From contig NZ_CP124750.1 in the NCBI RefSeq assembly GCF_029962605.1, positions 2,294,001-2,358,000 of the forward strand: a stretch of 64,000 bases of DNA, in the 5' to 3' direction. Below are positions 15,653 to 49,487 of this stretch, piece after piece. The stretch's first letter is position 1, and every line of letters begins with the position of its first letter. The position numbers and the translations under genes are program-made. The notes beneath the pieces are model-generated. The model was given only the letters and a program-made list of their open reading frames with translations. It searched no databases and had not been told where the DNA came from. The stretch comes from Serratia sarumanii. GTDB taxonomy: Bacteria; Pseudomonadota; Gammaproteobacteria; Enterobacterales; Enterobacteriaceae.

Positions 15653-15681
15653 TTGCATTTCTTCGGGGGGCTCTATATCAT
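15653..15681 (+). promoter_or_regulatory. Promoter of microcin exporter operon 1
   Basis: TTGCAT (15653-15658), a 17-nt spacer and TATCAT (15676-15681) form a good sigma-70 promoter about 140 nt before the HlyD-type gene. Its -10 overlaps the Fur box, a repressing geometry. Confidence 0.65.
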
Positions 15682-15697
15682 AATGAGAATAATTATC
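15679..15697 (+). promoter_or_regulatory. Fur box over microcin exporter promoter
   Basis: The 19-mer CATAATGAGAATAATTATC agrees with the classic Fur consensus GATAATGATAATCATTATC at 16 of 19 positions by direct count. It covers the -10 and probable transcription start of the exporter operon, which predicts derepression in low iron, as known for siderophore-microcin systems. The rest of the interval 15432-15819 is AT-rich with no convincing gene. Confidence 0.8.
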
Positions 15698-15819: not shown

Positions 15820-17106
15820 ATGCGTGATTTGTTTCGACAGGAAGCCACGGATCATCAGCGGGCGAAATGGGCGGGTAAGGCCTTATTGATAAACGGCTTG
15901 CCCGCCTGGTGCTTTGGTCTTTTATCGTTTTTATTTATTCTTGTTTTCCTCTCTTTTCTTATATTCAGTCATTATACGCGCCGCATTAATGTTTATGGTG
16001 AAATCACCACCTTCCCCCGCTCAGTCAATGTGTTTGCACCCCAGCAGGGTTTTATCTCGGAACGCTTCGTCGAAGTGGGCGACGTGGTTAAAAAAGGCCA
16101 GCGTCTTTATCAGATTGATGTCAGCCGGGTGACGGATAACGGGAAAGTGAGCGCCAATACGCGCCTGGCGCTGGAAAACCAGTTAAAACACGTTGACAGC
16201 ATCATCCTTAAGTTGCAAGACAACAAGCGCATGACGCTGGAAAATCTACGCGCGCAAAAAAAACAGTATGAATTGGCGCACATGCAGTCCAAACAGCTGT
16301 TGGATAACGCACGAGAAGGGGTGGCATTTGCTCAGGACAACATGCGTTCCTATAAGGAATATCAGCAGCGCGGTCTGATTACCAAAGATCAGCTTAGCGG
16401 ACAAACCTATTCGTTTTATCAACAACAAAGTCTGTTCCAAAACCTGCATAGCCAACACATTCAGGAATCGTTGCAAATTACGAATTTGGAAAGCGACATC
16501 GTTACGCGCGCGGCAGATTTCGATAATCAAATTTCACAGTACCAGTTTCAGCGTAATGATTTGCAACGGCAGTTAGCGGAAGCCGATGCCAGCGGCGCAT
16601 TGATCGTGAACGCCCCGAGCGATGGCCGCATTGAATCTCTCAGCGTTACCCCGGGTCAGATGGTCAATAGCGGTGACAGTCTGGTACAGATTATTCCACG
16701 TAATGGCGCGATTTATCAGCTAGTTTTATGGTTGCCGAACGCCAGTGTGCCTTATGTTTCAGCGGGGGACGCCATCAACATTCGTTATGATGCTTTCCCC
16801 TATGAGAAGTTTGGCCAGTTTCCCGGCAGGATAGAAAGCATCGCTTATGTGCCGGCCTCCATGCAAGAAATGTCAACTTACAGCAGTTCTCCCGTGCATC
16901 AGCCCAACGCGCAAACGGCATCTTATTACAAGGTCACCGTTTCCCTGGATGAAACGCATATCAGTTACCAGGGCAAGGCGTTGCAGCTCACTAACGGCAT
17001 GCGGGCTCAATCCACGCTGTTTCTGGAAAAAAGGCCTTTATATCAATGGATGTTCTCGCCTTTCTACGATATGAAAAACAGCCTGATGGGGCCAATCAAT
17101 GACTGA
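15820..17106 (+). CDS. HlyD/CvaA-type microcin secretion adaptor (island 1)
   Basis: A 428-aa periplasmic adaptor (membrane-fusion protein) of the CvaA/MchE kind. It has a cytoplasmic N-terminus, one membrane helix at about residues 34-55, a lipoyl half-motif (FISERFVEVGDVVKKGQRLYQID), a long coiled-coil hairpin (about 110-240), the second lipoyl half (LIVNAPSDGRIESLSVTPGQMV) and a beta-barrel. With the C39 ABC exporter and TolC it should form the type I channel exporting the microcins encoded on the opposite strand. The start ATG 15820 follows GGAAAGGGA. It overlaps the next gene by 8 nt. A paralogue with the same N-terminus (FRQEA) is encoded at 49488. Confidence 0.9.
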   Translation: MRDLFRQEATDHQRAKWAGKALLINGLPAWCFGLLSFLFILVFLSFLIFSHYTRRINVYGEITTFPRSVNVFAPQQGFISERFVEVGDVVKKGQRLYQIDVSRVTDNGKVSANTRLALENQLKHVDSIILKLQDNKRMTLENLRAQKKQYELAHMQSKQLLDNAREGVAFAQDNMRSYKEYQQRGLITKDQLSGQTYSFYQQQSLFQNLHSQHIQESLQITNLESDIVTRAADFDNQISQYQFQRNDLQRQLAEADASGALIVNAPSDGRIESLSVTPGQMVNSGDSLVQIIPRNGAIYQLVLWLPNASVPYVSAGDAINIRYDAFPYEKFGQFPGRIESIAYVPASMQEMSTYSSSPVHQPNAQTASYYKVTVSLDETHISYQGKALQLTNGMRAQSTLFLEKRPLYQWMFSPFYDMKNSLMGPIND

Positions 17107-19198
17107 ATCTTATTTCGACACGCTAAAGGGCAAACTCAATTTGTCGCTGCGCCGCAAAGTGCCGCAGATCCTGCAAACTGAAGCCTCGGAATGTGGGCTG
17201 GCCAGTCTGGCGATGGTATGCCATTACCATGGCTTGCAAATCGATCTGTTTAATCTGCGCAGCCGCTACGGCTTTTCTTCACGCGGGGCGACGCTGTCCG
17301 CGCTGATTGACATCGCGAGCGCACTGAAACTGCAATCCAGAGCGTTATCGCTGAATATCGATGAACTTAAGGCATTGAAAATGCCTTGTATTCTGCATTG
17401 GGACATGAAGCATTTCGTGGTGCTTGTCAGTGTCAGCCGAGGGCGGGCGGTGATCCATGACCCTGCCTTTGGCCGTAAAGTGCTGGGGTTGCATGAACTG
17501 TCGCGGCATTTTACCGGCGTAGCGCTTGAGCTGTGGCCAGACAGTGAATTTCAGCCGATCAAACAGCAAAGCAGATTGCGTTTTCGCAAACTGATGAGCA
17601 ATGTGCGCGGCCTCAAGGGGGCCTTGCTAAAGATCTTCTGTCTGTCGATCGTGATTGAAACGGTTAATCTGCTGTTGCCCGTCGGTACGCAGTTGGTCAT
17701 GGACCATGTGATTCTGGCCGGCGATCATGATCTTTTAGCGCTGATATGCATAGGATTGCTGTTTTTTATTTTATTCCGTACCGGCGTATCCATGTTGCGC
17801 TCGTGGATCTCTATCGTCATGGGCGCGTTGATAGACGTGCAGTGGAAGGCGGGAGTGTTCGATCATCTGATGAAATTGCCGCTTTCCTTCTTTGAGAAGC
17901 GCAAGTTGGGTGATATTCAATCCCGTTTCGGCTCATTGGATACGATAAGAGCGACTTTCACTACCAGCATCGTCAGCAGTATTATTGATGGCATCATGTC
18001 CGTAGGCGTATTTATCATGATGCTGCTCTATGGCGGCTGGTTGGTTTGGGTGGTGCTCGGCTTTACGGCGATATACGTTATTCTCAGGTTGTCGACCTAT
18101 CAATATTATCGGCAGCTGTCGGAAGAGCAGTTGGTGAAAGGGGCACGAGCCGGGTCTCATTTCATGGAAACGTTGTATAGCGTCAGTACGTTAAAGGCGC
18201 TGGGGTTATCTGAAACCCGTTCGCAGTATTGGCTGAATCTAAACGTAGAAACGATCAATGCCGGTATCAAGCTGACCAAATTAAACATGATGTTTGGCGG
18301 CCTGGGGGCGTTTATCGCCACCTGCGATCAGGTGATCATCCTTTGGCTAGGCGCGGCATTGGTCATAGACAATCAAATGACGATCGGCATGTTTATCGCG
18401 TTTAACGCCTACCGCGGGCAGTTTTCGGAGCGTGCCAGCAGCCTGATCGACATGATGCTTCAGCTGCGAATGCTGAGTTTGCATAATGAAAGGGTGGCGG
18501 ACATTGTGCTTTCGTCACCGGAATCGCAAATGCCCGCGCGCCAGCTCTTCACAAAAGGCAAAGCCGCGGAGCTTCGGGTGCGGAATCTGCGCTACCAGTA
18601 TGATCGCTTGGCGAAACCCATTATCGCGGATTTGAATCTCAGCATTGCAGCGGGAGAAAGCGTGGCGATTGTCGGTCCCTCCGGCGCGGGTAAAACCACG
18701 TTGATGAAGTTAATGTGTGGGTTGCTGTCGCCGGATGAAGGGGCCGTGCTGGTCGACGGTATGGATATCAGCAACATTGGCGTTAATAATTATCGCCAAT
18801 GTATCGCTTGCGTGTTGCAGGATGACAAGCTGCTGGCGGGATCTATCGCTGAAAATATTTCAGGATTTGATGCCGAAATGGATCTGAAGCGTATTGAGGC
18901 GTGCGCACGACGTTGCAATATGCATGATGATATTCAAAACATGCCGATGGGCTATGAAACATTGATCGGCGAACTGGGGGGGAGCCTTTCTGGCGGGCAG
19001 AAACAGCGCTTATTGATAGCCCGTGCGCTCTATCGTCGCCCCAGCATTCTGTTTATGGACGAAGCGACTAGCCACCTGGATCTAGATAATGAAACACATA
19101 TTAACCGCGCTATTTCACAACTGAACATTACCCGCGTGATTATTGCGCACCGTCCGTCGACGATTGCCTCTGCGGATAGAGTCATTCGACTCGGGTAA
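17099..19198 (+). CDS. C39 peptidase-containing ABC exporter, CvaB/MchF type (island 1)
   Basis: A 699-aa peptidase-containing exporter. The N-terminal C39 domain has Gln26, catalytic Cys32 (QTEASECGLASLAMV), His105 (KHFVVL) and Asp121 (HDPAFG); it removes the double-glycine-type leader. A six-helix membrane domain (about 160-445) follows, then the ATPase with Walker [13 protein letters not shown], signature LSGGQKQR, Walker B ILFMDEATSHLD and an H-loop His. It overlaps the adaptor gene by 8 nt. It should process and export the three precursors at 19383, 19905 and 30457. All catalytic residues are present, so it looks functional. A paralogue lies at 50755. Confidence 0.93.
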   Translation: MTESYFDTLKGKLNLSLRRKVPQILQTEASECGLASLAMVCHYHGLQIDLFNLRSRYGFSSRGATLSALIDIASALKLQSRALSLNIDELKALKMPCILHWDMKHFVVLVSVSRGRAVIHDPAFGRKVLGLHELSRHFTGVALELWPDSEFQPIKQQSRLRFRKLMSNVRGLKGALLKIFCLSIVIETVNLLLPVGTQLVMDHVILAGDHDLLALICIGLLFFILFRTGVSMLRSWISIVMGALIDVQWKAGVFDHLMKLPLSFFEKRKLGDIQSRFGSLDTIRATFTTSIVSSIIDGIMSVGVFIMMLLYGGWLVWVVLGFTAIYVILRLSTYQYYRQLSEEQLVKGARAGSHFMETLYSVSTLKALGLSETRSQYWLNLNVETINAGIKLTKLNMMFGGLGAFIATCDQVIILWLGAALVIDNQMTIGMFIAFNAYRGQFSERASSLIDMMLQLRMLSLHNERVADIVLSSPESQMPARQLFTKGKAAELRVRNLRYQYDRLAKPIIADLNLSIAAGESVAIVGPSGAGKTTLMKLMCGLLSPDEGAVLVDGMDISNIGVNNYRQCIACVLQDDKLLAGSIAENISGFDAEMDLKRIEACARRCNMHDDIQNMPMGYETLIGELGGSLSGGQKQRLLIARALYRRPSILFMDEATSHLDLDNETHINRAISQLNITRVIIAHRPSTIASADRVIRLG

Positions 19199-19279
19199 TG
19201 TCAGCTTCGCTTTACCTGGCCTCTTCACCCCGATATTTCCGCTACTTCAACCGCGCACTCATCCTGCGGTGAACCCATG

Positions 19280-19306
19280 AAAAAAGGGTTATCACAATGA
19301 TAACCC
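19280..19306 (-). terminator. Intrinsic terminator of leftward microcin operon
   Basis: Read on the minus strand: GGGTTATC, loop ATTGT, GATAACCC, then TTTTTT (arms 19299-19306 and 19286-19293, T-run 19285-19280). It has a perfect 8-bp stem and lies about 75 nt after the last precursor stop, so it ends the NRPS-microcin transcript where it converges on the exporter operon. Confidence 0.85.
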
Positions 19307-19382
19307 TGGCATGATGTGACGCTTTAGGCGCTGAAGCCAATGTTAACCGCTGAGGTCAACCGCGAGGCTTGCAGGGCCCCGA

Positions 19383-19670
19383 TCAGTTCGAATCGGTATT
19401 GTTGTTGTTCCCCCACATGGTACCGCCGCCGTTGCTCCCGCCCCAGGGAATGCCTGATGGGCCAACTGAGCCGGGGGCACGATCGCCGGTGACATAGTTA
19501 CCGACAGCACCGCCGACAATAGTGCCGACAACGCCGCCCGCCACGCCACCGATAGAGCCGATGCCGCCGCCGATCGCTGCGCCGACAGTTTCTGCGGAAA
19601 CCGTCAATGTACCGCTGCGATCTCCTGCACCGGAAATGATTGAACATTCTTCAGAGGTAAGATTGCGCAT
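19383..19670 (-). CDS. Microcin precursor with GA-type leader (island 1, peptide C)
   Basis: A 95-aa peptide. The leader MRNLTSEECSIISGA (15 aa) resembles the ColV/MccL/MccH47 leaders, with expected C39 cleavage before GDRSG and a predicted mature part of 80 aa. The mature part is dominated by small residues in GxxxG-like runs (about residues 30-58), suited to membrane insertion, and then a Gly/Asn-rich tail containing GPSGIPWGGSNGGG and ending NTDSN. The DSN end is shared with the other two precursors of this island. A strong AAGGAG lies 6 nt before ATG 19670. It is the last gene of the leftward operon, 42 nt after a 55-aa membrane protein that may be its immunity factor. There is no close match in memory. 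Confidence 0.82.
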   Translation of the reverse strand: MRNLTSEECSIISGAGDRSGTLTVSAETVGAAIGGGIGSIGGVAGGVVGTIVGGAVGNYVTGDRAPGSVGPSGIPWGGSNGGGTMWGNNNNTDSN

Positions 19671-19712
19671 ACTTGCTCCTTAGTAATTAAATTTTAAAAT
19701 AAGCCACGTTGA

Positions 19713-19880
19713 TCATGCTGAGCGTCGCCCGCGATCGCTATTGAGCAATTTATGCGTGGCGATAACGGCAAAGGCGATAAGGGCGTATTTCAAGAAACGA
19801 TTGAGGCTGAAATAATCCGCAATCGCGCCAACAACAAGCCCGATTAAAATGGCGAACAATATAATGAATAATCTTTTCAT
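19713..19880 (-). CDS. Small two-helix membrane protein, candidate immunity protein
   Basis: A 55-aa frame found by reading the minus strand from ATG 19880 to TGA 19713. It starts MKRLFIILFAILIGLVVGAI and continues with a second hydrophobic stretch (YALIAFAVIAT), ending in a basic tail (SDRGRRSA). Two short helices with positive ends are typical of microcin immunity proteins. It sits 24 nt after one precursor gene and 42 nt before the next, repeating the immunity-then-precursor order seen twice more in this island. The Shine-Dalgarno sequence is weak (GGAAG about 15 nt away). The function is inferred from context only. Confidence 0.65.
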   Translation of the reverse strand: MKRLFIILFAILIGLVVGAIADYFSLNRFLKYALIAFAVIATHKLLNSDRGRRSA

Positions 19881-19904
19881 ATGATGGATACGAATCTTCC
19901 TGCA

Positions 19905-20165
19905 TTAGTTACTGTCGGCAGGATTGTTCGTCGATGTTTGTTTATTGCCACCCAACATGGACTCCACCATTTTGCCAGCGGTATAGGCGGCACCACCGAT
20001 AACGGCACCGGCAACAGCGCCTGGGCCAGCACCGACGCCGCCAGCCATGGCGCCGGTCATCGCTCCACCAACCGCGCCGGCAGCGACTGCACCGCCCAAC
20101 TCTGCATAGCTGAAATCCCCAGCTGCCGCGATAAAGTTCACTTCATTAAGTGTAAGCTCTCTCAT
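19905..20165 (-). CDS. Microcin precursor, GxxxG-rich (island 1, peptide B)
   Basis: An 86-aa peptide with leader MRELTLNEVNFIAAA, very like microcin L/ColV leaders (MREITLNEMNNVSGA in MccL), followed by GDFSY. The processing site would be Ala-Ala rather than Gly-Gly or Gly-Ala, an unusual variant. The mature 71 aa are almost all Gly, Ala and hydrophobic residues (about residues 22-60), followed by a polar tail ending NNPADSN. There is no cysteine. AAGGAAG lies 7 nt before ATG 20165, and the gene is 15 nt after a two-helix membrane protein gene, the likely immunity partner. Confidence 0.85.
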   Translation of the reverse strand: MRELTLNEVNFIAAAGDFSYAELGGAVAAGAVGGAMTGAMAGGVGAGPGAVAGAVIGGAAYTAGKMVESMLGGNKQTSTNNPADSN

Positions 20166-20180
20166 AATGACTTCCTTATA

Positions 20181-20366
20181 TTATTGGTTTTTGGTTTTTG
20201 CAGTTTTCCGATACCAGAAAAATGCCACTAGCAAGGTTGAAAAGATAAAGGATTGAATGATTGTGCTGGTAAACCTCCTGTCTTCGGAAAAAAATAAAGA
20301 ATAAAAAATATCCATAAATGTGTAGTAAAAGCAGAACAAAAAAATCCAACTGCTTGGTAATTTCAT
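20181..20366 (-). CDS. Small membrane protein, candidate immunity protein
   Basis: A 61-aa protein with two hydrophobic segments (about residues 5-25 and 36-52), a central charged turn (SEDRRFTST) and a basic C-terminus (YRKTAKTKNQ). GAGG stands 6 nt before ATG 20366. It follows the second NRPS gene by 43 nt and precedes a microcin precursor by 15 nt in the same direction, the order seen in mceB-mceA. No sequence family is recognised, so immunity is inferred from size, topology and position. Confidence 0.7.
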   Translation of the reverse strand: MKLPSSWIFLFCFYYTFMDIFYSLFFSEDRRFTSTIIQSFIFSTLLVAFFWYRKTAKTKNQ

Positions 20367-20409
20367 CAGTGCCTCGATAGGTTTGATTGATAGGGGGTAT
20401 CTTCTCGCG

Positions 20410-23400
20410 TTATTCCAATGATGTTGACAACGCGTGCAGCAATTGCGTCAGCGCTCGAAGAAGTTGAGCGTTGTTTAAAATGCTGTAATGCGTTTCTGCA
20501 CAATAACTGAGTTGAACGCTATGCGAGGATTGCATCTCCCAGCGTTGTGCAAGATGGGGGTGTTTACGCTGACGTTGCTGGCTGAGCCAAAGCGTTAGCG
20601 GTATCGCTATCTGCGGCAGGGGGCCGGCGTTATTCGTTAGTTCGAACGATTTTTTCAGCGCCCAACAGAAGGTTTCGGCATGTTCCAGCGTGATCTTCTC
20701 CGCAAGCACGCTCTGATTCAGCGCATAGTGCATTTTTATCTCGTTGGCGAAGCTGTCTATCGCATTCGTTTCTTGACGCCGACACAAATGGCGCGCAATA
20801 CCGAGGGAGTCGAACAGACTGAGGTAACTTTGGGCCACGCTGAAACGTCGCTTCACTGCGGGCTGCTGGGCGGGAAAACCGCTGTCGACAACCACCGCAT
20901 GCGCAAAGGGCGCGCCTTGTTCCGTGGCCAGCGCCGCCATATGGACAGCTAATTGGCCACCCAATGACCAGCCGGCGATAACGGCCGTGTCGCGTTTGGC
21001 ACGCGGTATGGCCGCCAAGTGGGAGGCGGCCAATCGCTGCAGGGTGAGTGTGTCGTCTGCGCCTGGCGCGGCCAACCCCGGGCTGGCGATGGTAATGATG
21101 TTGGCGCAGGCGCAAAGCTGTTTTGTCCACTTTGCATATTGATGTACCTGGCCGCCGGCGCCATGCACCAAATACAAGGTGGGCAGAGAGGGGCGATCGG
21201 CTGAGCCGGACAGCATCGATAACGGCAGGGGCGCATTCGCGCGCAGACGCTCGACAAGTTTATCGAGCTGTGAGTAGCCAAGGATTTCCGCCAGGGTTAA
21301 TTCCACATTAAGGGCGCGCTTGATGTTGCCCAAAAACGTGATGCCGGAAAGCGAGCTGCCGCCATTGCTGAAGAAGCTGGCATGGGGGTCGATCTTGTCT
21401 GGGGTACAGCCTAACGTATTCGCCAACAGCTCTCGTAGCAGCATGAGTTCCGCGGACGCCGCGGGTGCAACATCGCTGGCCTGACTCCGTTCGGTGCCTG
21501 GCGATAGCAAGGTGCGATCCAATTTGCCGTTGCGTGAAAGTGGGAAACGTTCAATGAGATGATAGCGGGATGGCGCCATATACGTGGGCAATGCGGCCGT
21601 AACCAGCTCGCGTATTCTTTGCTCTGCTTGAATGCAGGTTTTCCCCGCCTCGGTCAATGTGATGTAAGCCTCCAGATGCGGTGTGCCGTTCCCGGTTTCA
21701 TCGCGACAGACGACACACGCTTCAGCGACCAGCTCGCTGCTTTTGAGCGCGAATTCGACGTCACCTAATTCGACGCGAAAACCCTGCAGTTTCACCTGTT
21801 GGTCTTCGCGGCCGAGAAACTCGATGTAACCGCTGCGATGCCAACGGCCGCGATCGCCGGTGCGGTACACGCGTTCTCCGGTGGTTGGGAAAAGCACAAA
21901 GCTGCCGACGGTGGTTTGGCTATCGCGCCAATACTCGCGGGCAACCCCAACGCCACCGATATAAATGTCGCCGGTAACGCCGAAACCGCACGGCTCGAGT
22001 TTTTCATCCAACACCCACATGCTCTGATTTGGCAATGCGGTTCCATAGGGGATGGCGTTTCTGTAGTGCGTATCTCGTGTAACCGGATGATAAATTGACC
22101 ATATTGCCCCTTCGGTTGCACCGCCAAGGCTGGTGATGGTGGCGTTGGGGCAAAGCCGATGTGCCTCGGCGATCAGCCGCGAAGAGATGCGATCGCCGCT
22201 CAGCCAAATATGCCGCAGTTGAGGCAGCGACAGGATGTTTTCTTGTGCGCAATATTGCACCAGCATTTGCAAGATGGCGGGAACCGAGTTCCAGATGCTG
22301 ATTTGCCGCTGGCGTATCGCATTTAGCCATGCTGACGGCTCTTTCGCTTCATGCGGCGATAGCACCGTTACCGATGCGCCGGCTAGCCAGCTGCCGAACA
22401 GGTCATAGACCGATAAATCGAAGGCCAGATCGGCGAGCGCCAATACGTTGTCACGATGAGAAACGTTAAACTGTCGGTTCATGGTCAGCAAGGTATTGGT
22501 GACGGCACCCTGTTCCATAGCCACACCTTTTGGCGTGCCGGTCGTCCCCGACGTATAAATGACATAGGCGAGCGCTTCCGCTTCGCCTGGCGGGAAGGTC
22601 GCTGTGTCTGTGACATGAGGGGAAAACAGCGCCTCCAGATCTTGAATGCGGGTAGTCTGCGGATAGCGGGCGCGATGGTGAGCCTGGTTGCTCAAAACCC
22701 AGGCGCAACCTGATATCCGCATAATGGCCGCTGCGCGGGCATCCGGCAATCCTTCGGCCAACGGCAAGTAGGCGCGTCCGGCGAGGATCACGCCGAGCGC
22801 CGCAATAGCTTGATGAGCGCCGCGTGGAAGATCGATGGCGATGAGCGCGCCTGGGGCGGTATGGGCGATCAGCCAATGCGCCACGAGGCCGGCGTGCCGC
22901 AACAGTCGATCGTAATGCCATACGCTATCGCCCTCGTACAACGCCGGGCGATCCGCATGCTGGTGGGCAGTGCGTAACAGCCGATCGGAAAGAGGTTGCC
23001 GCAAGAATGCCGGCATTGCCTGTCCGATGGAGAGCTGACGCAATTGCCGGTTATCGGCCATTGACGCCAGCGAATAGTGGCCGACGGCCCGCGAGGGATC
23101 GCAGGCAATTTGCTGCAGCAGCAATGCGTAAGCTTGCGCCAATCCATCAATGCGCTCCGGCGTAAACAGCTTGGCGTTGTATTGCCATTCCAACTGAATG
23201 CCCTCTGCGCTGGAAATCACTTCCAGAACCAGATCAAACTTGGGCGGCGCATAGCCTCTCGGCAGGGTGTTAACCTGCGCACCGCCAACATTTAGCTCAT
23301 TGCTTTTGCGATGTTGGCAGACGAACATGATTTGAAAAATGGGGTGAAACTTGCCGCGCGTGGGCTTGAGTTGTTCAACCAGGTAAGAGAATGGCAAACC

Positions 23401-24555: not shown

Positions 24556-27500
24556 CAGTGCACTCCTTCTATGTTGACGTCGATAGCTTTCCCTGTTCGA
24601 CCGCTTTTATTCGGGCGTTTGTCGCTGTGGGCGGAAATCAAATTCAGCCAATGCGACAAGCTACACAACTGCACTCCCGGGTTTCTCCGCTGTGCCATTG
24701 TGAAGGCGGCGCGATGATCGATATTCTCGCCATCATCGAAGCCGAAGATCCTCAGTACGCAGCCGTTCAATCGCTCATTGGCCGTATCGAACCGGATGTG
24801 CGGGAAATAGCCAAGCCGCGCGGAAAAGGCTATCAACTCAGTAACGCCGGCGTCGATGGCTTGGCGGCGCGAATCGGTTTTATGCAGCAACAGCAGCCGC
24901 TCATGCCGAAAATCGCGCAGCAGGCTTTGCGTGAGTCTGGCGCCGCCGGCTGTATCATGCATAAAGATCATGTAGTTAACTCGGCCGGGCAGGACGAGCA
25001 GCAGGGCCGAAAGCGCATCAAGCCAGCTGGCATATTGCGTGGCTTCGTTCGGTACGTTGAATATGGCCGCGTTCAGCGGCCATTCAGCATGCAACGGCAG
25101 CGCCTGCGGTGACAGAATGTCCACACCGTGTTTGTCGGCGAGGGCGGCCAACAAAAGTCGTTCATCTGCGCCTTCGGGGGATTGAATAAACAGCCGGCTG
25201 CTGGCCGGCGCCTCGGTTGATAGGCGGCGGCCGATAGCGCAACGGATGTCCAGATGCTGCGGATCCAGGCCATAGCGTGCATGGGCCAGCTGCGTTAGGT
25301 GTCGGCAGAAATCGGCGAGTCTCGGATGTTCAAAAATGTCGCTCAGGTTCAGATCCAACCGACAGTGGGCGTTAAGCGCGTTAATGATTTTTATGGCCTG
25401 CAGCGACTCGCCGCCGAGCGTGAAGAAGTCGCCATCGTCACTGCCCAGCGTCGCGAGCCAAACCTCATTCACCAGGGTGTTGAATGTCGTCGAACGCAAT
25501 TCCCGTGTGGGTTCAGGCAGCCGGGATTGTCTTTCCAGGGTGCGATAATCAATCTTGCCGTTAGCCAGTTTGGCCAGCGGCGTTGGGTGATGCACGAAGC
25601 GCTGAGGAATATGTGCATTGGGCAGTTCGCCATACAGCGTGCGGCGCATTGCCTCGCTGAGCGGCTGCCGGCTGTGATAATGCGCGTACAGTTCCGTTCC
25701 CGCGTCGCCGCTTTTGGCCAGCACGGCAATTTCGACAATTGCGGGCAACCGGGCCAGACAGCTTTCTATCTCACCCATATTGACGCGCTGCCCGGCGATT
25801 TTCGCTTCACGAATTTTGCGGCCAAGGAACACCAACTGCCCATCCTGGCGCTGGCAGGCGATATCGCCGGTACGAAAGGCGGGCATGGGATGGCCGTTAA
25901 CCTCAAGGGTGACGAACTTTTCCGCGCTCAGCGTTGGCTGATGCAAATATCCCAGGCTGACGGTCGCTCCGGCTATCAGTAATTCGCCGCTGCAGCCGAG
26001 CGGCAACAGCCTGAGATCCTCGCCGACGATCGCCGTGTATATACCGTCCAACGGTGCGCCTATCGTCACGGCGGCGCCATCGTTTTTGATTTCGGCGACC
26101 GTCGCCACCACGGTTGTCTCGGTTGGGCCGTAGGAGTTGAATAACTTTCTGCCTTTGGGATAGTGCGCGAACCAGCTTTCTTTGGCTCGCGGTGAAAGGC
26201 TTTCGCCGCCGATGATAACGGTCGTGACGGCCGGCGGCAGCGTCTGTTCGCCGCCGGAGGCGAACAGCATCTCATTAAAGTAGGCGGTCGGCAGATCCAG
26301 CAGGCTGATTTGATGATCGGCGCAGAATGTGAAGAAAGCGGCAAAACTGTGCTTGACGGCCTCAGGGGCGATACACAGGTGGGCGCCGGCACCCAGCGTC
26401 ATGAAAATTTCTTCAATGCACGCATCGAAATGCAAGGGCGCAAATTGCAACACGCGTTCATGCGGTTGAATGCCATAGCATTTTATCGCCGCATCGACAA
26501 AAACGTTGAGAGCATGTCGGGCGCCTATCACGCCTTTAGGCATTCCCGTCGAGCCGGAGGTAAACATGATATAGCCGGTTCCGGCCGGGAATGGCGGCAC
26601 CTCTGCCGCTATTTGCCGGCGAAACACGGTGAAGTGCGCGAAATCCGCCGGCATATCGAGTGTCGATGCGCGCCAATGCGCCAATGCGTCAGGTTCGGAA
26701 TGAAAGGAGGGAAGTGTGCGATCGGTAATCAGGATAGCGTCGCTAAACTGTTCAAGCAGTTGACGATGAGCCGCTCCATCCCCTTTGGCATTCAGGTTGA
26801 CGAACGGCATTTTCAACTGCAGCGCAGCAAGCATGCAGATGATGGCTTCCGGCCCTTGCGGCAAGTCGAGCAACAGCACGGTGTATGCAGCACGGGCGGG
26901 GGCCAGGGTATCGGCCAGCGCACGCCACTGTTGCTGCAAAACGGCATAAGACAGCGCTCTTAGCGACAACGAAGCGTGTGCGGGCGTGAGGATCGCCGTG
27001 CGTTGCGGCGCTTGAACGACGGCACGATCGATACGTTGCATTATATCGACCACGTTCTCGTTGGCTGCTTTACCCTGCAGCGAGAGCGGGAAACGTTGTC
27101 GCAATGCCGCGACGGAAAGATTTTCCGGGTCGTGATACAGCAAGTCGCACAAGGTCTGTATCCCCTGGCTGTGCCGCACCAGGCTGGCCGCATCGTAAAG
27201 CCCTGAGTCGGCATCGATCTCCAGCCGAAGCGTTTGGTTATCGAGATCGGGACGCATGTTGAACACCAGATCCTGCGCGCCTCCTGAGCGTAAATTACGG
27301 ATTTCGCTGCGCTGCGCGGAAGAAAATGAGGCTGCCGCTTCAAAGGGAATGATATTGACCACGATGTTGAACAGCGGCGAGCGGCTGGTGACGCTCCTCA
27401 GACTTTTTATCTCTTCGTAACGGAACGCTTGATGTTTTTTGAGTTGCCTGAGCATGCGTTCAATGGTTTGCGCCAACTGTCGGCATGAGGCTGTGTCCTC

Positions 27501-28361
27501 AATATCGAGCGTCAAAGGAACAACGTTGGTTTTGCAAGTCAGCGCCTGCCTCGTCAGGGAGTCTGTTCGCGCCATCATTGGGACGCCGATCGTTTGCTGT
27601 TTCTCGCCGGTACACAAGTACAAATATGCCATCACTGCCACGAAAGTGCGCGCCAGCCAAGAAGGGTGCTCGGTTTGCAGCGCAAGGCGCTCGGCAGGAT
27701 AGGGCAACGACGTCACATGGCGGATCGTTTGTCCCGAGGGAATATTGGCGCAGGCTAATGTCATCGGGTCTGGCAGTGAGGCGCTGGCTGCTTGCCAAAA
27801 ATGTCGGTCCGCTTGATAGGCGGCTGACTGTTTATACTCAGATTCAGCCCTGAGCAAGGCATCGATCGCAGGTACGTCTTGCGGTTGCTGCGTTTGGCCT
27901 CGGTAGGCCTGTGCCACTTGGTGGATCAGCAAATAAGTGCCGTAACCATCAAGCAGCAGATGGTGGCTGCAGAAATACCACAGAAAGCGTTGCTCACCCA
28001 GTCTAATGATTTTTTGTCTGAATAACGGCGCAGCGTTCAACGAGAACGGGCGCTTGGTATCCGCTTCCATTAATTCGATAGCGGTGGCCATATTGTTGGC
28101 GCGCTGCGAAAGATCTACCCATTCCACTGAGATGTTGGCGGTGACGGGATATTGATAAGGCGTACCGTTATCTTCATCAAACAGAACGTGCAGCGTCGGC
28201 GTTTGGCTGATGACGCGATGAATGGCACGTTTCATTCTTGCGATATCGAGAGTGTGATTTATTTCGACATATTCCGCGATATTATAGCTCGATTTGTCAT
28301 CGCCGATCTTGGTGCCGTAGTAAAATCCCGCCTGTGAATCCAATAGTTGATGCTTGCTCAT
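24555..28361 (-). CDS. NRPS module: C-A-PCP plus degenerate thioesterase (Lys-like A domain)
   Basis: A 1268-aa synthetase. The N-terminal condensation domain begins at residue 1 and resembles that of EntF, with HHLLLDG at 133-139, so it could accept an acyl group from a separate carrier protein. The A domain (about 440-930) has YIMFTSGSTGMPKG, HFDACIEEIF, NSYGPTETT and LANGKIDYRTL. The carrier site is GGESL with Ser near 986. My manual specificity code is D-A-E-D-I-G-S-V, one change from the bacitracin Lys code DAESIGSV. The last 210 residues align in pattern with the thioesterase of the next gene but have MHDTAGG (1134-1140) where GWSLGG should be, so the nucleophile Ser is missing. The gene starts 27 nt after the acyltransferase gene. 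Confidence 0.9.
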   Translation of the reverse strand: MSKHQLLDSQAGFYYGTKIGDDKSSYNIAEYVEINHTLDIARMKRAIHRVISQTPTLHVLFDEDNGTPYQYPVTANISVEWVDLSQRANNMATAIELMEADTKRPFSLNAAPLFRQKIIRLGEQRFLWYFCSHHLLLDGYGTYLLIHQVAQAYRGQTQQPQDVPAIDALLRAESEYKQSAAYQADRHFWQAASASLPDPMTLACANIPSGQTIRHVTSLPYPAERLALQTEHPSWLARTFVAVMAYLYLCTGEKQQTIGVPMMARTDSLTRQALTCKTNVVPLTLDIEDTASCRQLAQTIERMLRQLKKHQAFRYEEIKSLRSVTSRSPLFNIVVNIIPFEAAASFSSAQRSEIRNLRSGGAQDLVFNMRPDLDNQTLRLEIDADSGLYDAASLVRHSQGIQTLCDLLYHDPENLSVAALRQRFPLSLQGKAANENVVDIMQRIDRAVVQAPQRTAILTPAHASLSLRALSYAVLQQQWRALADTLAPARAAYTVLLLDLPQGPEAIICMLAALQLKMPFVNLNAKGDGAAHRQLLEQFSDAILITDRTLPSFHSEPDALAHWRASTLDMPADFAHFTVFRRQIAAEVPPFPAGTGYIMFTSGSTGMPKGVIGARHALNVFVDAAIKCYGIQPHERVLQFAPLHFDACIEEIFMTLGAGAHLCIAPEAVKHSFAAFFTFCADHQISLLDLPTAYFNEMLFASGGEQTLPPAVTTVIIGGESLSPRAKESWFAHYPKGRKLFNSYGPTETTVVATVAEIKNDGAAVTIGAPLDGIYTAIVGEDLRLLPLGCSGELLIAGATVSLGYLHQPTLSAEKFVTLEVNGHPMPAFRTGDIACQRQDGQLVFLGRKIREAKIAGQRVNMGEIESCLARLPAIVEIAVLAKSGDAGTELYAHYHSRQPLSEAMRRTLYGELPNAHIPQRFVHHPTPLAKLANGKIDYRTLERQSRLPEPTRELRSTTFNTLVNEVWLATLGSDDGDFFTLGGESLQAIKIINALNAHCRLDLNLSDIFEHPRLADFCRHLTQLAHARYGLDPQHLDIRCAIGRRLSTEAPASSRLFIQSPEGADERLLLAALADKHGVDILSPQALPLHAEWPLNAAIFNVPNEATQYASWLDALSALLLVLPGRVNYMIFMHDTAGGARLTQSLLRDFRHERLLLLHKTDSRRQAIDAGVTELIAFSARLGYFPHIRFDTANERLNGCVLRIFGFDDGENIDHRAAFTMAQRRNPGVQLCSLSHWLNLISAHSDKRPNKSGRTGKAIDVNIEGVH

Positions 28362-28388
28362 CGGCTCATCCCTGATGTTTATTTTTCT

Positions 28389-28829
28389 TTATTTTTTTAC
28401 CGTCATCAGTTTGCCCGTTCGGCGGGAACGCCATACAACCGTGCGACGTTCTGCGATTGGGTGAACTGTTTTAAGGTGTTCCAAACATAAATGCGCGCTG
28501 CCTGGCTTGCAGCAAAAATCTAAAATACACAGCGTGCCGCCCTCATCCCATTCTGAGGTATGGAGAAGAAACTGCGGATCGTTAATAAATCGACCCAGCG
28601 TCTCATCTCTCAGGTAGGCCCAGGTTATATATCCTAACGGATTATCCAAATGGTCGAATAATATTTTGAATTGGTTTTGATTAATCGCTTCCTGAGTCCA
28701 TAGCTGCAACGTTTTTATATGGTACAAACTGTAATTTTTATTCATCAGCATACAGTTAACGGCGAAGCCCAGGCTCTCGTATTGACTGAACTTACTTTTA
28801 CCCTGCTGGTTTTCTTTGATAAAACTCAC
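28389..28829 (-). CDS. HlyC/MceI-like acyltransferase (microcin maturation)
   Basis: A 146-aa member of the RTX toxin-activating acyltransferase family. Compared with HlyC, the catalytic histidine is present (SLYHIKT, His37), as are the N-Q-[YF] strand (NQNQF), the GYITWAYL counterpart of AYCSWANL, and the catalytic Asp (ILDF, Asp104). In class IIb microcins the homologues MceI and MchD attach the siderophore group to the C-terminal serine of the precursor. It starts with GTG 28829 after GAGG, 18 nt downstream of the 508-aa gene, and just before the NRPS genes, so it probably transfers the NRPS product or a siderophore to a precursor. Confidence 0.82.
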   Translation of the reverse strand: MSFIKENQQGKSKFSQYESLGFAVNCMLMNKNYSLYHIKTLQLWTQEAINQNQFKILFDHLDNPLGYITWAYLRDETLGRFINDPQFLLHTSEWDEGGTLCILDFCCKPGSAHLCLEHLKTVHPIAERRTVVWRSRRTGKLMTVKK

Positions 28830-28847
28830 GAAATATCCTCAGCGTTA

Positions 28848-30374
28848 TTATTGTAATACGTTGATCGCCTGGCGCTCGAAACGATCCAGATAGGTTTGCA
28901 ACTGTTCGCTGATCTCGCTGACTTCACCGCGCCAGCCGGCAATTTCTTGAAAAATCACTTCACGGCGCATGAACGCGCGGGAGCCCAACCTTCGGGTGAC
29001 GGTCTGCTTCATCACCTGTTGTAATCCGGCGGCGGTTTGATCCGCTGATGTTTCCTGAAGGTACTTCGCGTATAACCGCTGGAATGCCAGAGAAAATTTC
29101 TCCTCCGCTGTCGTACCCTGTTGTTCGGCGGAAACCCTTACGGGCGAGTCGATGAGCCGATGCAACAGGGCAATCGCCGGATGAGCATTCCCCTGGCCCA
29201 GACCTTGTCGACGGCTAAAGACGCCGGGAGCCAAATCGAACATTTTTTGCAAGCGTTCGCCTAAGGCGAACCATTCGGCGGTGAGAGGCAGGCGTTGTAA
29301 AAATGCAGGGGCAAAACCCGCCATACCGAGATTATCCAGCAGGCAGGCTCGCTTGTAGGCCATACTAAAGGCCGCGCCGATGCCTTGGTGCGCTGCCGCG
29401 AGAAATGCCGGGCCAAATTGATGCTTGGCTAAATAAAAAGCGAGATCTTGCATGCCTCTCAGCAACAAAGGGGCGTCTTCGTTGAGTTTGTTGTGCTGAA
29501 TGTAGCTGCGGCCGGGATCTCGACGTTCTGCGGGAAAAACGCTGCGAACACCATGAAAGTCCAGCAGCCTGCCGGCCATATCGCAATTGGAGGGTGAGGT
29601 CATCATCACCAAATGGCGGGTACGGCAGTAAGCTATCTGCGTCGCAAGGCGCCGGGCAAGCTCGCAGAGCCCGTAGAATGCTCGTTCTTCCTGCGGCAAT
29701 GCCAACCAGCGCACAGCGTCAAACTCAGAGGGACGAGGCAGAAAGGACGGTGCGGCGACAATGAGTTTTTCGGTCCGCTCAATATCCGAAGGCTGCCTTT
29801 GCATCGCATCATGAGGATGATAGTAGGGCGCGCGGCAAAAATGTGCAGGGCGCACGACGGGTTCGCGCACCAGCAACGCCTTGCGGTTATGGACATCTCC
29901 CGCCGATGCAGGAGAGAGGGTGGCGATGGGGTTGTCGGTCAGCAAGATCGCCTTATTGGGCACGGCGCCATAAGGCAGCAGTTTGGCCATGACGTTTCCC
30001 CACAATGCCTCCAATACTGCGCCGGTCATTGTCAACTCGCCATCGACATGCTTTGCCCCTTGACCGACTAACGCATTGGCTCCGATGCCTTTAACCTGCC
30101 ATAGCCCATCAAAGCCACAGCGTGCGCCACCGCCGTTGCGCGAAATAGCCCCGCCGCCATAACGTTCGGCGAAAAAGACTTTTTCATCGTTTAAGAGCGG
30201 CGTGCCGTCATCAAAAATAGCATGACGATTATTTTCTTCGATGAGATAGCTGGCCTCATTTTTCAGTTCGTCCTGCTCGGCAGGGCTTAATTCGTTGTGC
30301 CAGAGTAATTGAGAACCTGTCTTTTTTGCGACAAAAGGAATCAAGCTTTCGTGAAGCATGGCGAGGTTTTTCAT
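28848..30374 (-). CDS. MceJ/MchC-like microcin maturation protein (candidate)
   Basis: A 508-aa soluble protein with no signal peptide or membrane helix. It contains a glycine-rich stretch at about residues 70-105 (RYGGGAISRNGGG followed by FDGLWQVKGIGANALVG), reminiscent of the nucleotide-binding core of SelO-like pseudokinase folds. Its length and its place directly before an MceI-like gene match mchC-mchD and mceJ-mceI, where MceJ forms a complex with MceI. I do not recall MceJ well enough to align it, so the assignment rests on context, length and the companion gene. The Shine-Dalgarno sequence is weak. A hairpin separates it from the precursor gene upstream. Confidence 0.6.
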   Translation of the reverse strand: MKNLAMLHESLIPFVAKKTGSQLLWHNELSPAEQDELKNEASYLIEENNRHAIFDDGTPLLNDEKVFFAERYGGGAISRNGGGARCGFDGLWQVKGIGANALVGQGAKHVDGELTMTGAVLEALWGNVMAKLLPYGAVPNKAILLTDNPIATLSPASAGDVHNRKALLVREPVVRPAHFCRAPYYHPHDAMQRQPSDIERTEKLIVAAPSFLPRPSEFDAVRWLALPQEERAFYGLCELARRLATQIAYCRTRHLVMMTSPSNCDMAGRLLDFHGVRSVFPAERRDPGRSYIQHNKLNEDAPLLLRGMQDLAFYLAKHQFGPAFLAAAHQGIGAAFSMAYKRACLLDNLGMAGFAPAFLQRLPLTAEWFALGERLQKMFDLAPGVFSRRQGLGQGNAHPAIALLHRLIDSPVRVSAEQQGTTAEEKFSLAFQRLYAKYLQETSADQTAAGLQQVMKQTVTRRLGSRAFMRREVIFQEIAGWRGEVSEISEQLQTYLDRFERQAINVLQ

Positions 30375-30418
30375 TTTTTTAATCGTTATTTTTATGGGCG
30401 CAGGGCAAGTTAAGTATC

Positions 30419-30447
30419 GGCCTTATTTTTCAAGGGATAATAAGGCC
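30419..30447 (-). repeat. Hairpin between E492-like precursor and maturation genes
   Basis: Perfect 9-bp inverted repeat GGCCTTATT (30419-30427) and AATAAGGCC (30439-30447), 9 nt beyond the precursor stop on the minus strand. No T-run follows leftward, so it may stabilise the short precursor mRNA or cause partial termination. Read rightward it is followed by T7 and could stop antisense transcription. Confidence 0.6.
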
Positions 30448-30456
30448 CACGTTTTT

Positions 30457-30744
30457 TTAATTTGAAGAATCCGGTGTTGAAAGTGACGACGACGGTGAAG
30501 GGCGACCACCGCCACTGCCATTCCATGTTGGGCCCATGGGAACCTGTGGAATAGCAACGTTAACCGGCATGTGCGGTGCGGCCTGAATAGCGATTTCCGT
30601 GCCCACGCCCACGGCTAATGATACGGGGGTGGGCAATTTCGCTATTGTGCTCAGGCTACCGACAATAAGTGAAGTCGGATTATAAGAATCATTGCCGTCA
30701 GAACCGTTAATACATGACAACTCAACTTCCGTTAAGGCTCTCAT
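30457..30744 (-). CDS. Microcin E492-like class IIb precursor (island 1, peptide A)
   Basis: A 95-aa precursor with leader MRALTEVELSCINGS (Gly-Ser processing site) and a mature part of about 80 aa starting DGND. The C-terminal half carries PVNVAIPQVPMGPTWNGSGGG broken by no gaps against microcin E492 (PVNVPIPVLIGPSWNGSGSG as I remember it), so it clearly belongs to the siderophore-microcin class. E492 ends in a Ser-rich tail whose last Ser receives the siderophore; here the tail is SPSSSLSTPDSSN, ending in Asn. ATG 30744 overlaps the upstream immunity-type gene by 4 nt (ATGA), with AAGGAG 6 nt before it. It probably acts on the inner membrane of related bacteria after siderophore-receptor uptake. 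Confidence 0.9.
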   Translation of the reverse strand: MRALTEVELSCINGSDGNDSYNPTSLIVGSLSTIAKLPTPVSLAVGVGTEIAIQAAPHMPVNVAIPQVPMGPTWNGSGGGRPSPSSSLSTPDSSN

Positions 30745-31031
30745 TTAAGCTCCTTCTTGCGAGAGGTAATAGATAACACAAGCGAAAAAATAACTGCCAT
30801 CGACAAACCATACATTGCCGTGATTTTAAGGGCGGCCGTATCCAAAAGGATCGCTTGGCGCTGCCGGCAGTAGTCTAAAAATACGGCAAGGGGGAATATC
30901 AAGAACAGCATGACGATATGGTACGTGCGCAAGCCTTTTTTCTTCGCGTTTTTATAAGTTGCACTGATAATGAGGATGAAAATGACAATAAGAACTATTT
31001 CCGTTATAAGCTGCAATTTGATTAGCTCCAT
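30741..31031 (-). CDS. Three-helix membrane protein, candidate immunity protein (MceB-like position)
   Basis: A 96-aa protein with three hydrophobic segments (about residues 7-25, 38-54 and 68-88) separated by basic loops (KNAKKKGLRTYH; CRQRQ) and a basic tail (SRKKELK). Size, topology and a 4-nt overlap with an E492-like precursor match mceB, the immunity gene of microcin E492, which also lies directly upstream of its precursor. It is the first gene of the leftward NRPS-microcin operon. The start ATG 31031 lacks a clear Shine-Dalgarno sequence. Immunity is inferred. Confidence 0.78.
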   Translation of the reverse strand: MELIKLQLITEIVLIVIFILIISATYKNAKKKGLRTYHIVMLFLIFPLAVFLDYCRQRQAILLDTAALKITAMYGLSMAVIFSLVLSITSRKKELK

Positions 31032-47229: not shown

Positions 47230-47436
47230 ATCGATAGCATCTACGTGTAATCAGGTTCGGTATATTATTCTGGGTTTTATTCTAATATGATGGTTTTCGA
47301 TATTTAAAATACACTTTGCTTATTGGTTTGTTTATGAAATACAGAGTAGTTATGGATTGTTATTAGTGTATTTTACTTTTGCAACTACAACCCGTTTTAA
47401 ACAGGGTAACCCCAGTGAATCCATAGGAGAATATTG

Positions 47437-47721: not shown

Positions 47722-47738
47722 TTAACTGATGCAATCCC

Positions 47739-47765
47739 AGCACAGAAGTAAAATTCTGTGCTTTT
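47739..47765 (+). terminator. Hairpin with short T-run between precursor and downstream genes
   Basis: AGCACAGAA (47739-47747), loop GTAAAA, TTCTGTGCT (47754-47762), then TTT: a perfect 9-bp stem 17 nt after the precursor stop. It is probably a leaky terminator giving excess precursor mRNA over downstream enzyme mRNA. Confidence 0.7.
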
Positions 47766-48041: not shown

Positions 48042-48105
48042 CTAAGCCATAATCCAGCATTGAATCATTCAAGTTTTCCATACTATAGTTTTCGTGGTGA
48101 TTTAA

Positions 48106-49383: not shown

Positions 49384-49487
49384 AAAGGGATGGTTTGTAA
49401 TGCAGATTAACTGACGTTCCGCTTGTTTGATTACCAATGCAATAGCCTGTGAATTTGAATATTAGCTTTCAATAAGGGACGCTGATC

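Follow-up and report, generated by a model that had tools for sequence, protein, structure and literature searches.

What do two nonribosomal peptide synthetase (NRPS) genes do in an operon that encodes microcin precursors? The question is raised by a locus of Serratia sarumanii within the stretch of 64,000 nucleotides analysed here (referred to as the window), and the answer which we consider probable is that it encodes a siderophore-microcin-like system whose cap is made by the cluster's own genes. A sequence-only reading had listed three precursors, immunity-type proteins, a HlyC-type protein, a 508-aa protein, two NRPS genes and an exporter, all of which are indeed present there. It had also supposed that no such system was described, which does not hold, because Gerc 2014 (PMC4117218) already proposed that these NRPSs make a microcin-modifying group in S. 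marcescens Db10. The locus was described again by Parker 2026, the available text of which lists its genes (PMC13101503).

To all appearance, the window carries the same locus as S. marcescens Db10/Db11 and SM39 (SMA1568-1575; SM051, SM017, SM027), sharing with SMA1568-1575 the microcins, the NRPS genes, the HlyC-type and MchC genes and a divergent exporter, and SM027, SM051 and SM017 appear to be the three microcins of the window. The accessible parts of the 2014 and 2026 papers on this locus give no new tag, code or mechanism. Added here are the tag swap, the reading of the A-domain codes, the lack of a close MceC-type enzyme in NRPS-type genomes, the SelO-fold model and the Fur-box site, while the idea of a modification by the NRPSs itself is not new.

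Organization of the cluster

The features of the locus are the following.

30741..31031, minus strand: immunity-like membrane protein A, 96 aa (ORF with three hydrophobic windows; role suggested by position)
30457..30744, minus strand: precursor A, 95 aa, E492-type scaffold, tag ...STPDSSN (NCBIfam E492_microcin NF051486, 63.5 bits, cut-off 50)
28848..30374, minus strand: MchC/MceJ-family protein, 508 aa, predicted SelO-type fold, proposed C-terminal activating enzyme (homology, fold model)
28389..28829, minus strand: MchD/MceI-type HlyC-family acyltransferase, 146 aa, GTG start (PF02794, 40.5 bits, cut-off 25)
24555..28361, minus strand: NRPS1, C-A-T plus a tail of ~240 aa, code DAEDIGSVVK, predicted basic residue (domains, A-domain code)
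20410..24555, minus strand: NRPS2, C-A-T-TE, code DLYNWSLIWK, predicted Cys (domains, A-domain code)
20181..20366, minus strand: immunity-like membrane protein B, 61 aa (ORF with two hydrophobic windows)
19905..20165, minus strand: precursor B, 86 aa, tag ...NPADSN (ORF; scaffold relative L035:3889-4146)
19713..19880, minus strand: immunity-like membrane protein C, 55 aa (ORF with one hydrophobic window)
19383..19670, minus strand: precursor C, 95 aa, tag ...NNTDSN, no lysine (ORF; scaffold relative L038:11348-11638)
15820..17106, plus strand: HlyD-family membrane fusion protein (PF13437, 66.3 bits)
17099..19198, plus strand: C39 peptidase ABC exporter (PF03412, 113.7 bits; PF00664, PF00005)
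15679..15697, no strand assigned: Fur-box-like site, 16/19 to a presumed consensus, 141 bp upstream of HlyD (consensus scan)

The leftward operon extends from 31031 to 19383 with gaps of at most 82 bp, and the ORF coordinates agree with the earlier placement of the precursors and both NRPS genes in one transcription unit. Its order is the immunity-like protein of 96 aa, precursor A, the 508-aa and 146-aa proteins, NRPS1, NRPS2, the immunity-like protein of 61 aa, precursor B, the immunity-like protein of 55 aa and precursor C, i.e. three precursor/immunity-like pairs in one operon with the two NRPS genes and the genes for the 508-aa and 146-aa proteins. The HlyD and C39-ABC genes (15820-19198) are divergent from this operon and lie outside of it. 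The precursors have a leader of the double-glycine type, alongside the HlyD/C39 exporter; only precursor A scores above the NF051486 cut-off, and precursors B and C stay below all profile cut-offs.

Many of these features are shared with the class IIb microcins (MccE492, MccH47, MccM, MccI47), namely similar leader-bearing scaffolds, a pair of MchC/MceJ- and MchD/MceI-type proteins encoded beside the precursors, a HlyD plus C39 exporter and small membrane proteins next to the precursors. In contrast to class IIb, the window contains an in-operon two-module NRPS and neither an MceC-type glucosyltransferase nor an MceD-type esterase. The earlier statement that both enzymes are missing stands for these types, as no relative of MceC/IroB or MceD/IroD was found in the window (best E value 0.6), but not in its general form, since a PF12919 glycosyltransferase is encoded at 48106-49383; this protein belongs to another family and sits in a separate exporter locus. 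The best MceC-type match in the whole genome shows 30% identity over part of the sequence (E 3.6e-8). A close MceC-type glucosyltransferase is absent from 6/6 genomes with NRPS-type loci and present in 3/4 canonical ones, one of these three being the query's own genome and another containing a match with two internal stops; a close relative is also missing in 3/4 EntF-type genomes and in one canonical genome. A 2,3-dihydroxybenzoate (DHB)-AMP ligase is present in the host genome, but was rejected as discriminating evidence because it occurs in 15/15 genomes, including the canonical ones.

The C-terminal tag and the proposed ligase pair

The class IIb tag is of a Ser/Gly type ending in Ser, whereas none of the three window precursors carries a Ser/Gly-rich tag ending in Ser; all three end in Asn, with precursor A being Ser-rich just before its end. 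Terminal Asn is found in 16/16 precursors of six NRPS-type loci, five of which are near-copies of each other, and terminal Ser in 10/12 precursors found in canonical and EntF-type loci. Asn-ended precursors also occur in records of Raoultella terrigena, Serratia plymuthica and Pectobacterium. Each of the four distinct NRPS-type scaffolds has a relative in loci without the NRPS, with a change of the tag from a Ser-ended form to D-S-(x)-N: the scaffold identities amount to 42/74, 51/80, 29/76 and 27/55, versus 1/11, 3/12, 4/11 and 3/12 over the 12 C-terminal residues, and the core scores of the four pairs were reached by 0/1000 shuffles. The weakest scaffold match of the set is that of precursor A with its partner from L039, which scores 78 with precursor C versus 61 with precursor A. 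The tag count excludes L009, because it shares a contig with L032, as well as the remnant L033 and the leader-like peptides encoded next to MchC relatives of greater distance (L010, L043, L044), which end in ...SGQ, ...WCS, ...FCN, ...ALF and ...NGY. The pattern search yielded no precursors in L040, L041, L058 and L060. Judged from these sequences, the Asn-ended tail resembles another address label, the second one for caps.

The proteins proposed to read this label are related to those of known microcin loci, as had been suspected. The 508-aa protein shows 35% identity over its full length to MchC of E. coli O6:H1, which leaves the expected kinship with MceJ/MchC in place, and its clade in the MchC tree, the NRPS clade, has a support of 0.97. 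Its structural model (pLDDT 86.6) matches the SelO/YdiU fold (Foldseek E 1.6e-10), although the seven SelO/YdiU matches are distant at 15-18% identity, and sequence profiles alone give this relation a probability of 33%, or 12% without bridging rows. The protein thus models as a SelO fold with a Lys, Glu, Asn, Asp set: K95, E122, N263 and D272 are invariant across 27 sequences and align to K, E, N and D of the host genome's own SelO, positions that include residues used by SelO. SelO/YdiU protein adenylyltransferases share the predicted fold and these positions, but act on side chains, while the proposed substrate of the 508-aa protein is a peptide C-terminus. The SelO kinship of MchC was discarded as a new observation, being already contained in the available text of a 2012 publication (PMC3281104).

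The 146-aa protein likewise turned out to be related to the MceI/MchD type, with 51% identity over 137 aa to the protein encoded directly after MchC in an E. coli mch locus. The latter is annotated as toxin-activating lysine-acyltransferase, and we read it as MchD from its gene position. In an alignment by eye, the His at what we take to be the catalytic place of HlyC is missing in the E. coli protein and in 2/15 relatives.

A comparable arrangement is seen in the EntF-type MchC clusters (L037, L040, L041, and L036 with the NRPS split in two ORFs), in which an NRPS gene lies directly upstream of the MchC and HlyC-type genes. These NRPSs consist of a single module, with the Ser code DVWHFSLIDK in the three readable cases; the MchC proteins of L036, L037 and L040 fall outside the NRPS clade, and Ser is the last residue of both tags observed (L037, L036).

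The predicted cap and its proposed attachment

The A-domain codes, with positions mapped by eye on an alignment, suggest a basic residue followed by Cys. The code of NRPS1 contains the Glu239/Asp278 pair that is typical of codes for Arg and Lys, and it fits the Arg pattern in 8/10 and the Lys code DGEDHGTVVK in 7/10 positions, as both are given in the available part of PMC12283262. The same text contains the NRPS2 code in its Cys paragraph and ties it to 'Ox modified' moieties, whereas the condensation motif of NRPS2 is an ordinary HHCVVDG. The C domain of NRPS1 groups with EntF- and chrysobactin-type C domains (support of the joining node 0.86), to which it is only ~24% identical; 18/19 motif hits were included in this tree, and one hit (L052_13887), on the other strand, is probably due to chance. 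The predicted cap is DHB-(Arg/Lys)-Cys, against which counts that siderophores of the enterobactin type do not have Cys at the position of release. The tail of NRPS1 (~240 aa, window's copy) has no Pfam match, and its model from two sequences reaches a pLDDT of 44. Both NRPS genes are open and under constraint (dN/dS 0.11-0.20), and a search at blastn sensitivity with 3,991 bases of NRPS2 gave no match in an E. coli collection of 5,426 genomes.

In the proposed mechanism, NRPS1 would take DHB from the host carrier protein in an EntF-like manner and couple it to Arg or Lys, and NRPS2 would add Cys, with its thioesterase freeing the product. As judged from their families, the SelO-fold MchC protein may adenylate every precursor at its C-terminal carboxylate, with the HlyC-family partner possibly completing the transfer onto a nucleophilic group of the cap. 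The corresponding attachment in microcin E492 is performed jointly by MceJ and MceI, whose exact role in joining peptide and siderophore is called unknown in the available text of PMC7472721. The precursors of NRPS systems would carry their own tag, D-S-(S/T)-N or a terminal-Asn variant, in place of the Ser-ended Ser/Gly tag. The C39 exporter would cut off the leader and export the product, and the cap may direct the microcin towards a receptor by which competitors take up catecholates or related metallophores. The earlier proposal that an NRPS-made group would be put on the precursor C-termini by the MceI/MceJ-like pair is partly supported, by the protein families, the tag swap and the missing glucosyltransferase.

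A different division of labour, in which the NRPS product is a metallophore or signal that stays free and the precursors receive from the MchC/MchD-type pair the ordinary, unglucosylated catecholate of the host (enterobactin- or chrysobactin-like), seems unlikely to us. The genome does contain other NRPS loci, one of them EntF-like near a DHB-AMP ligase and another of chrysobactin-type look by its domain order and Ser code (a label based on PMC4117218 and our own reading), and the terminal thioesterase of NRPS2 would permit a free product; however, within the operon the NRPS genes are flanked by the MchC/MchD-type pair on one side and by precursors B and C on the other, and a change of the NRPS is accompanied by a change of the tag.

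We give still less credit to the view of the peptides as class IIa-like microcins that stay unmodified, their Asn-ended tails binding receptors and the enzyme genes serving something else. Class IIa is offered as one option in the available sections of PMC13101503, since 0/93 S. marcescens microcins carry a canonical tag, and 17 heterologously secreted microcins were active there, apparently without modification enzymes. This is opposed by a tail type common to four distinct scaffolds and by dN/dS values of about 0.2 or less. To our knowledge, relatives of MchC and MchD have no other use, which also counts against unmodified peptides.

That the 146-aa protein acylates lysines inside the precursors with a group bound to the NRPS, in the manner of HlyC on RTX toxins, would be in keeping with its HlyC family, but is very improbable, as precursor C and the L034 precursor lack any lysine after the leader. 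Moreover, we know of no HlyC system with an MchC partner.

Returning to a cap made by the cluster itself, it is conceivable, and we propose it tentatively, that a second orthogonal conjugation code exists, in which the MchC/MchD-type pair of this clade would recognise the terminal-Asn tag and ligate to the peptide a dedicated NRPS product with a thiol (DHB-Arg/Lys-Cys or its oligomer), scaffolds changing their cap type through an exchange confined to the final 8-12 residues. In that case the pair would act in general as a ligase of peptides and small molecules whose caps can be exchanged, namely glucosylated enterobactin, the EntF-type product, the product of the two-module NRPS and perhaps that of a radical SAM/methyltransferase system (Klebsiella plasmid locus L060). 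Similar scaffolds and related ligases with different tags and apparently different caps make tag specificity and cap chemistry comparable side by side, and a new thiol catecholate as cap would point to another entry route for peptide antibacterials.

Distribution and genomic context

According to the available part of PMC13101503, SM027, SM051 and SM017 occur in 56%, 55% and 43% of those S. marcescens assemblies that carry microcins, and given these frequencies the proposed system would be a widespread means of competing in this species. A neighbourhood search, as suggested earlier, found the cluster intact and constrained in five Serratia genomes (including that of the window) and in one genome of another genus, which leaves hardly any room for a decaying remnant with disused NRPSs, even though one Serratia genome (G411, locus L033) retains only pieces of it. 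Immunity-like protein A also occurs in five further Serratia loci (L029-L033) with 76-97% identity (partial in L033). Among 72,556 plasmid records, 21 contain an MchC relative, with identities of 31-42%, i.e. below those of the NRPS clade (47% or more).

The Fur-box-like site upstream of HlyD is the only one scoring at least 16/19 in the 64 kb, using what we take to be the Fur-box consensus, and this score was reached in 1/2000 shuffles. A 16/19 site is present at a similar place in L029-L033; the best match before HlyD in L034 is 12/19, and that upstream of the NRPS operon 11/19. The exporter genes may be iron-repressed via Fur.

The dcp gene is counted among possible modification genes in the available text of PMC13101503, but was rejected as such because a close dcp occurs in 26/30 Serratia genomes, whether or not these carry the cluster. 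It lies near the same amidohydrolase gene across Serratia genomes. The two genes are 16.0-18.1 kb apart where the cluster is present (five genomes), 8.7 kb apart in G411 with its remnant, 0.3 kb in the cluster-free genome G403 and 1.1-16.3 kb in other cluster-free genomes; these distances indicate that other DNA also occupies the place of the cluster.

Cluster layout and precursor tags

The arrangement described by the sequence-only reading was recovered when the region was re-read: a leftward operon from 31031 to 19383 contains three pairs of immunity-like and precursor genes, the genes for the 508-aa protein and a 146-aa HlyC-family protein, and the two NRPS genes, while HlyD and C39-ABC exporter genes run rightward, opposite to the operon, starting at 15820. 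Three precursors, one of them E492-like, had been claimed, and precursor A is indeed the sole one of the three passing the curated E492-group model (63.5 bits, cut-off 50), precursors B and C giving weak sub-cut-off matches to microcin models or none. No relative of MceC or MceD is found in the 64-kb window, in line with the claimed absence of a glucosyltransferase and an esterase. The claim that no such system had been described must be given up, since the parts of PMC4117218 (2014) considered here propose that the NRPSs of cluster one (SMA1575-1568) in S. marcescens Db10 produce a group modifying the microcin, and those of PMC13101503 (2026) describe SM027, SM017 and SM051 alongside genes of the same types, place these microcins in 56%, 43% and 55% of microcin-bearing assemblies, respectively, and report the canonical tag in 0 of 93 S. 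marcescens microcins. The window is equated with these loci via gene content and protein families rather than via the Db11 sequence. Among the papers listed by searches of open-licence PMC main texts, none was found to describe the Asn tag, the A-domain codes or the cap.

As judged from the compared sequences, the main new result is an apparent swap of the C-terminal tag on related precursor scaffolds. In a tree of MchC proteins, the close relatives of the 508-aa protein form one clade (support 0.97), called the NRPS clade here; an NRPS itself is observed in the Serratia loci and locus L034, and members from Raoultella terrigena, Photorhabdus and others are known from database protein records alone. 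Canonical loci are those with an MchC outside this clade and free of NRPS genes, E. coli locus L057 being assigned via E. coli MchC P0049.

Precursors of NRPS-type loci and their canonical partners (scaffold identities; identities in the last 12 residues; score)
Precursor B, L035:3889-4146; 42/74; 1/11; 188
Precursor C, L038:11348-11638; 51/80; 3/12; 200
Precursor A, L039:15070-15378; 29/76; 4/11; 61
L034 precursor, L042:3130-3339; 27/55; 3/12; 96

For each NRPS-type precursor, the highest score among the four canonical peptides belongs to its own partner, and 0 of 1000 shuffles attain any of the four scaffold scores. The reverse best match holds in three of four cases, the exception being the L039 peptide (78 with precursor C vs 61 with A). 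As judged from the curated model and 37/78 identities to L059:4549-4818, precursor A is more firmly linked to the E492 group by these than by its L039 match.

Asn is the last residue in all 16 precursors from the six NRPS-type loci (...DSSN, ...DSN or ...DSTN); five of these loci are close copies, leaving four independent scaffolds from two genera. In the canonical and EntF-type loci, 10 of the 12 precursors found are Ser-ended, and the other two, from one Salmonella plasmid, end in ...AGD and ...SKG. This count excludes the peptides next to less closely related MchC proteins (L010, L043, L044), which carry neither tag, one ending in ...FCN. As database queries, the four NRPS-type precursors retrieved 52 proteins at E <=10, several resembling fragments or frame-shifted reads and many weak ones being untagged bacteriocin-like peptides. 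Seventeen are Asn-ended, including proteins from Raoultella terrigena (...STPDSSN), Intestinirhabdus alba (...DDSTN) and Serratia plymuthica (...GPDYSN), further variants (...PDLTN, ...PLYGN, ...SIYGN, ...GGSN) and P0146 from Thalassotalea, an untagged relative. Given these variant ends, the terminal Asn is the constant element, with D-S-(x)-N as its common form. From equal contig sizes, P0168 (...SIYGN) is taken to share a contig with the clade MchC P0012 and the HlyC-type P0098 (3357545), as are P0131 and P0134 with the HlyC-type P0101 (22064). In database proteins P0139, P0141 and P0150 the E492-like scaffold carries yet another C-terminus (...RPMSC or ...RPQSC), which apparently brings the tail types of this scaffold to at least three.

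With the MceC/IroB protein of L039 (genome G451) as query, close relatives are present in three of four canonical genomes (the source genome G451, 100%; G552, 75%; G709, 72%, with two internal stops) and in the EntF-type genome G493 (76%, one internal stop). None is found in any of the six NRPS-type genomes, where matches are partial at up to 31% with E no better than 8.7e-9 or missing altogether, nor, with the same query and limits, in G411, which carries a cluster remnant, in the EntF-type genomes G421, G408 and G561, or in the canonical but fragmented genome G642. The cluster resembles class IIb siderophore-microcin systems in its proposed way of working, but differs from them in lacking a Ser-ended tag and an MceC-type glucosyltransferase; because these two defining features are absent, it is called a variant rather than filed as a class IIb member.

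The MchC-type and HlyC-type pair

The sequence-only assignment of the 508-aa protein as an MceJ/MchC partner and of the 146-aa protein as HlyC/MceI-like proved sound. The former is a full-length MchC with 92 database relatives among 7998 candidates scored, many of them named MchC by NCBI, and is 35% identical to MchC of E. coli O6:H1; the latter shares 51% identity with the HlyC-type protein directly after MchC in an E. coli mch locus.

SelO transfers AMP to proteins. The seven best structure matches to a model of the 508-aa protein (24-sequence alignment, pLDDT 86.6) all belong to YdiU/SelO (E 1.6e-10 to 2.3e-8, TM 0.51-0.55 on the query, 15-18% identity). The profile comparison with the SelO of the same genome is weak: the probability is 33% if bridging rows are included and 12% otherwise. 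Its alignment nevertheless pairs K95, E122, N263 and D272, which are invariant across 27 sequences, with K, E, N and D. The MchC protein may adenylate the C-terminus of the peptide and would thereby activate it. That MchC is a distant relative of SelO was already published in 2012, according to the part of PMC3281104 considered. The database protein P0092, labelled SelO by Pfam, also matches MchC (E 2.9e-11) and bridges both families.

An EntF-type NRPS gene immediately precedes MchC in four loci of other genomes:
L037 5011-15135, EntF-like NRPS and MchC, Ser code, canonical tag
L040 5232-11226, EntF-like NRPS and MchC, Ser code, MacA/LolD-type exporter upstream
L041 8115-14100, EntF-like NRPS and MchC, Ser code, contig ending soon after
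L036 8139-14163, EntF-like NRPS in two ORFs and MchC, Ser-ended precursor

Neither a precursor nor a full C39 exporter was found nearby in L040 and L041. On plasmid pmk4 of Klebsiella sp. PL-2018 (L060 6833-14626), MchC-like and HlyC-type genes are accompanied by genes for radical SAM, methyltransferase, HlyD and C39 proteins. These differing partner genes suggest that the pair is a putative ligase module with exchangeable cap genes.

NRPS modules and the predicted cap

NRPS2 has the domains C-A-T-TE, and NRPS1 consists of C-A-T plus a tail with zero matches in Pfam:
24558-25283, minus strand, NRPS1 tail of ~240 aa, poor structure model, similar-length stretch in L034

The NRPS2 specificity code, read by eye from the alignment, is DLYNWSLIWK, which the part of PMC12283262 considered lists in its Cys paragraph among codes for 'Ox modified' moieties; a ring is not predicted for the cap because the condensation motif of NRPS2 is of the ordinary type. 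In the tree, the NRPS2 C domain is placed among ordinary C domains. The NRPS1 code DAEDIGSVVK is of a basic type, Arg or Lys, by comparison with that source. The L034 relatives show the same Cys code together with DAEDVGSVVK, and the same alignment gives the Ser code DVWHFSLVDK for the EntF-like module (L052) and the second chrysobactin-type module (L053). The C domain of NRPS1 clusters with the C domains of the genome's EntF-like and chrysobactin-type synthetases and of the EntF-type loci (about 24-25% identity, joining node support 0.86). Taken together, this grouping and the A-domain codes point to DHB-(Arg/Lys)-Cys as the predicted cap, with DHB presumably provided in trans. A DHB-AMP ligase is encoded in the genome of the window (862.7 bits), but equally in 15 of 15 genomes checked, and does not discriminate between locus types.

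Genomic site, regulation and a second exporter locus

The G+C content of the cluster is 46-59% per kilobase, that of the flanks mostly >60%, and the host contig is a 5.1-Mb Serratia contig. The MchC of the window is 92% identical to database records named S. marcescens. Among 30 Serratia genomes, an intact relative at >=92% occurs in five (the window's own included), a piece in G411 and another MchC type (42-43% identity) in G421 and G408. A family-wide draw of 392 genomes contained any MchC relative in 10, three with an intact protein of the same clade (G000, G404, G450) and G411 with the piece; an order-wide draw of 394 gave eight matches, one in the genome of the window and seven to distant relatives (32-38% identity). 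In the five cluster-bearing Serratia genomes, the same amidohydrolase and dcp genes flank the cluster, 16.0-18.1 kb apart by their coordinates, vs 0.3 kb in the cluster-free G403 and 1.1-16.3 kb in other cluster-free genomes, so the site is variable. The remnant in G411 (L033 14155-17391) retains pieces of the immunity-like, precursor, MchC, HlyD and C39 genes, and no NRPS was found in it. The dN/dS values of NRPS1, NRPS2 and MchC are 0.18-0.20 against the Serratia locus L030 and 0.11-0.14 against L034, the latter being rough because dS is ~2.

Scored against a Fur consensus, the best match in the 64 kb (16/19) lies 141 bp upstream of HlyD and represents a candidate Fur-like site; it recurs with 16/19 at a like position in five further Serratia loci, L033 counted, and 1 of 2000 shuffles of this intergenic stretch attained 16. 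Matches reach at most 12/19 upstream of HlyD in L034 and 11/19 upstream of the NRPS operon, and sites of 14/19 fall within the genes for precursor A and NRPS1.

A second exporter locus with HlyD and C39-ABC genes (47434-52854, plus strand), in which the local G+C content falls to 34.5%, possibly encodes a glycosylated microcin:
47434-47721, plus strand, Gly/Asn/Ser-rich leader-like peptide, TTG start
48106-49383, plus strand, PF12919 glycosyltransferase-domain protein, 100.5 bits
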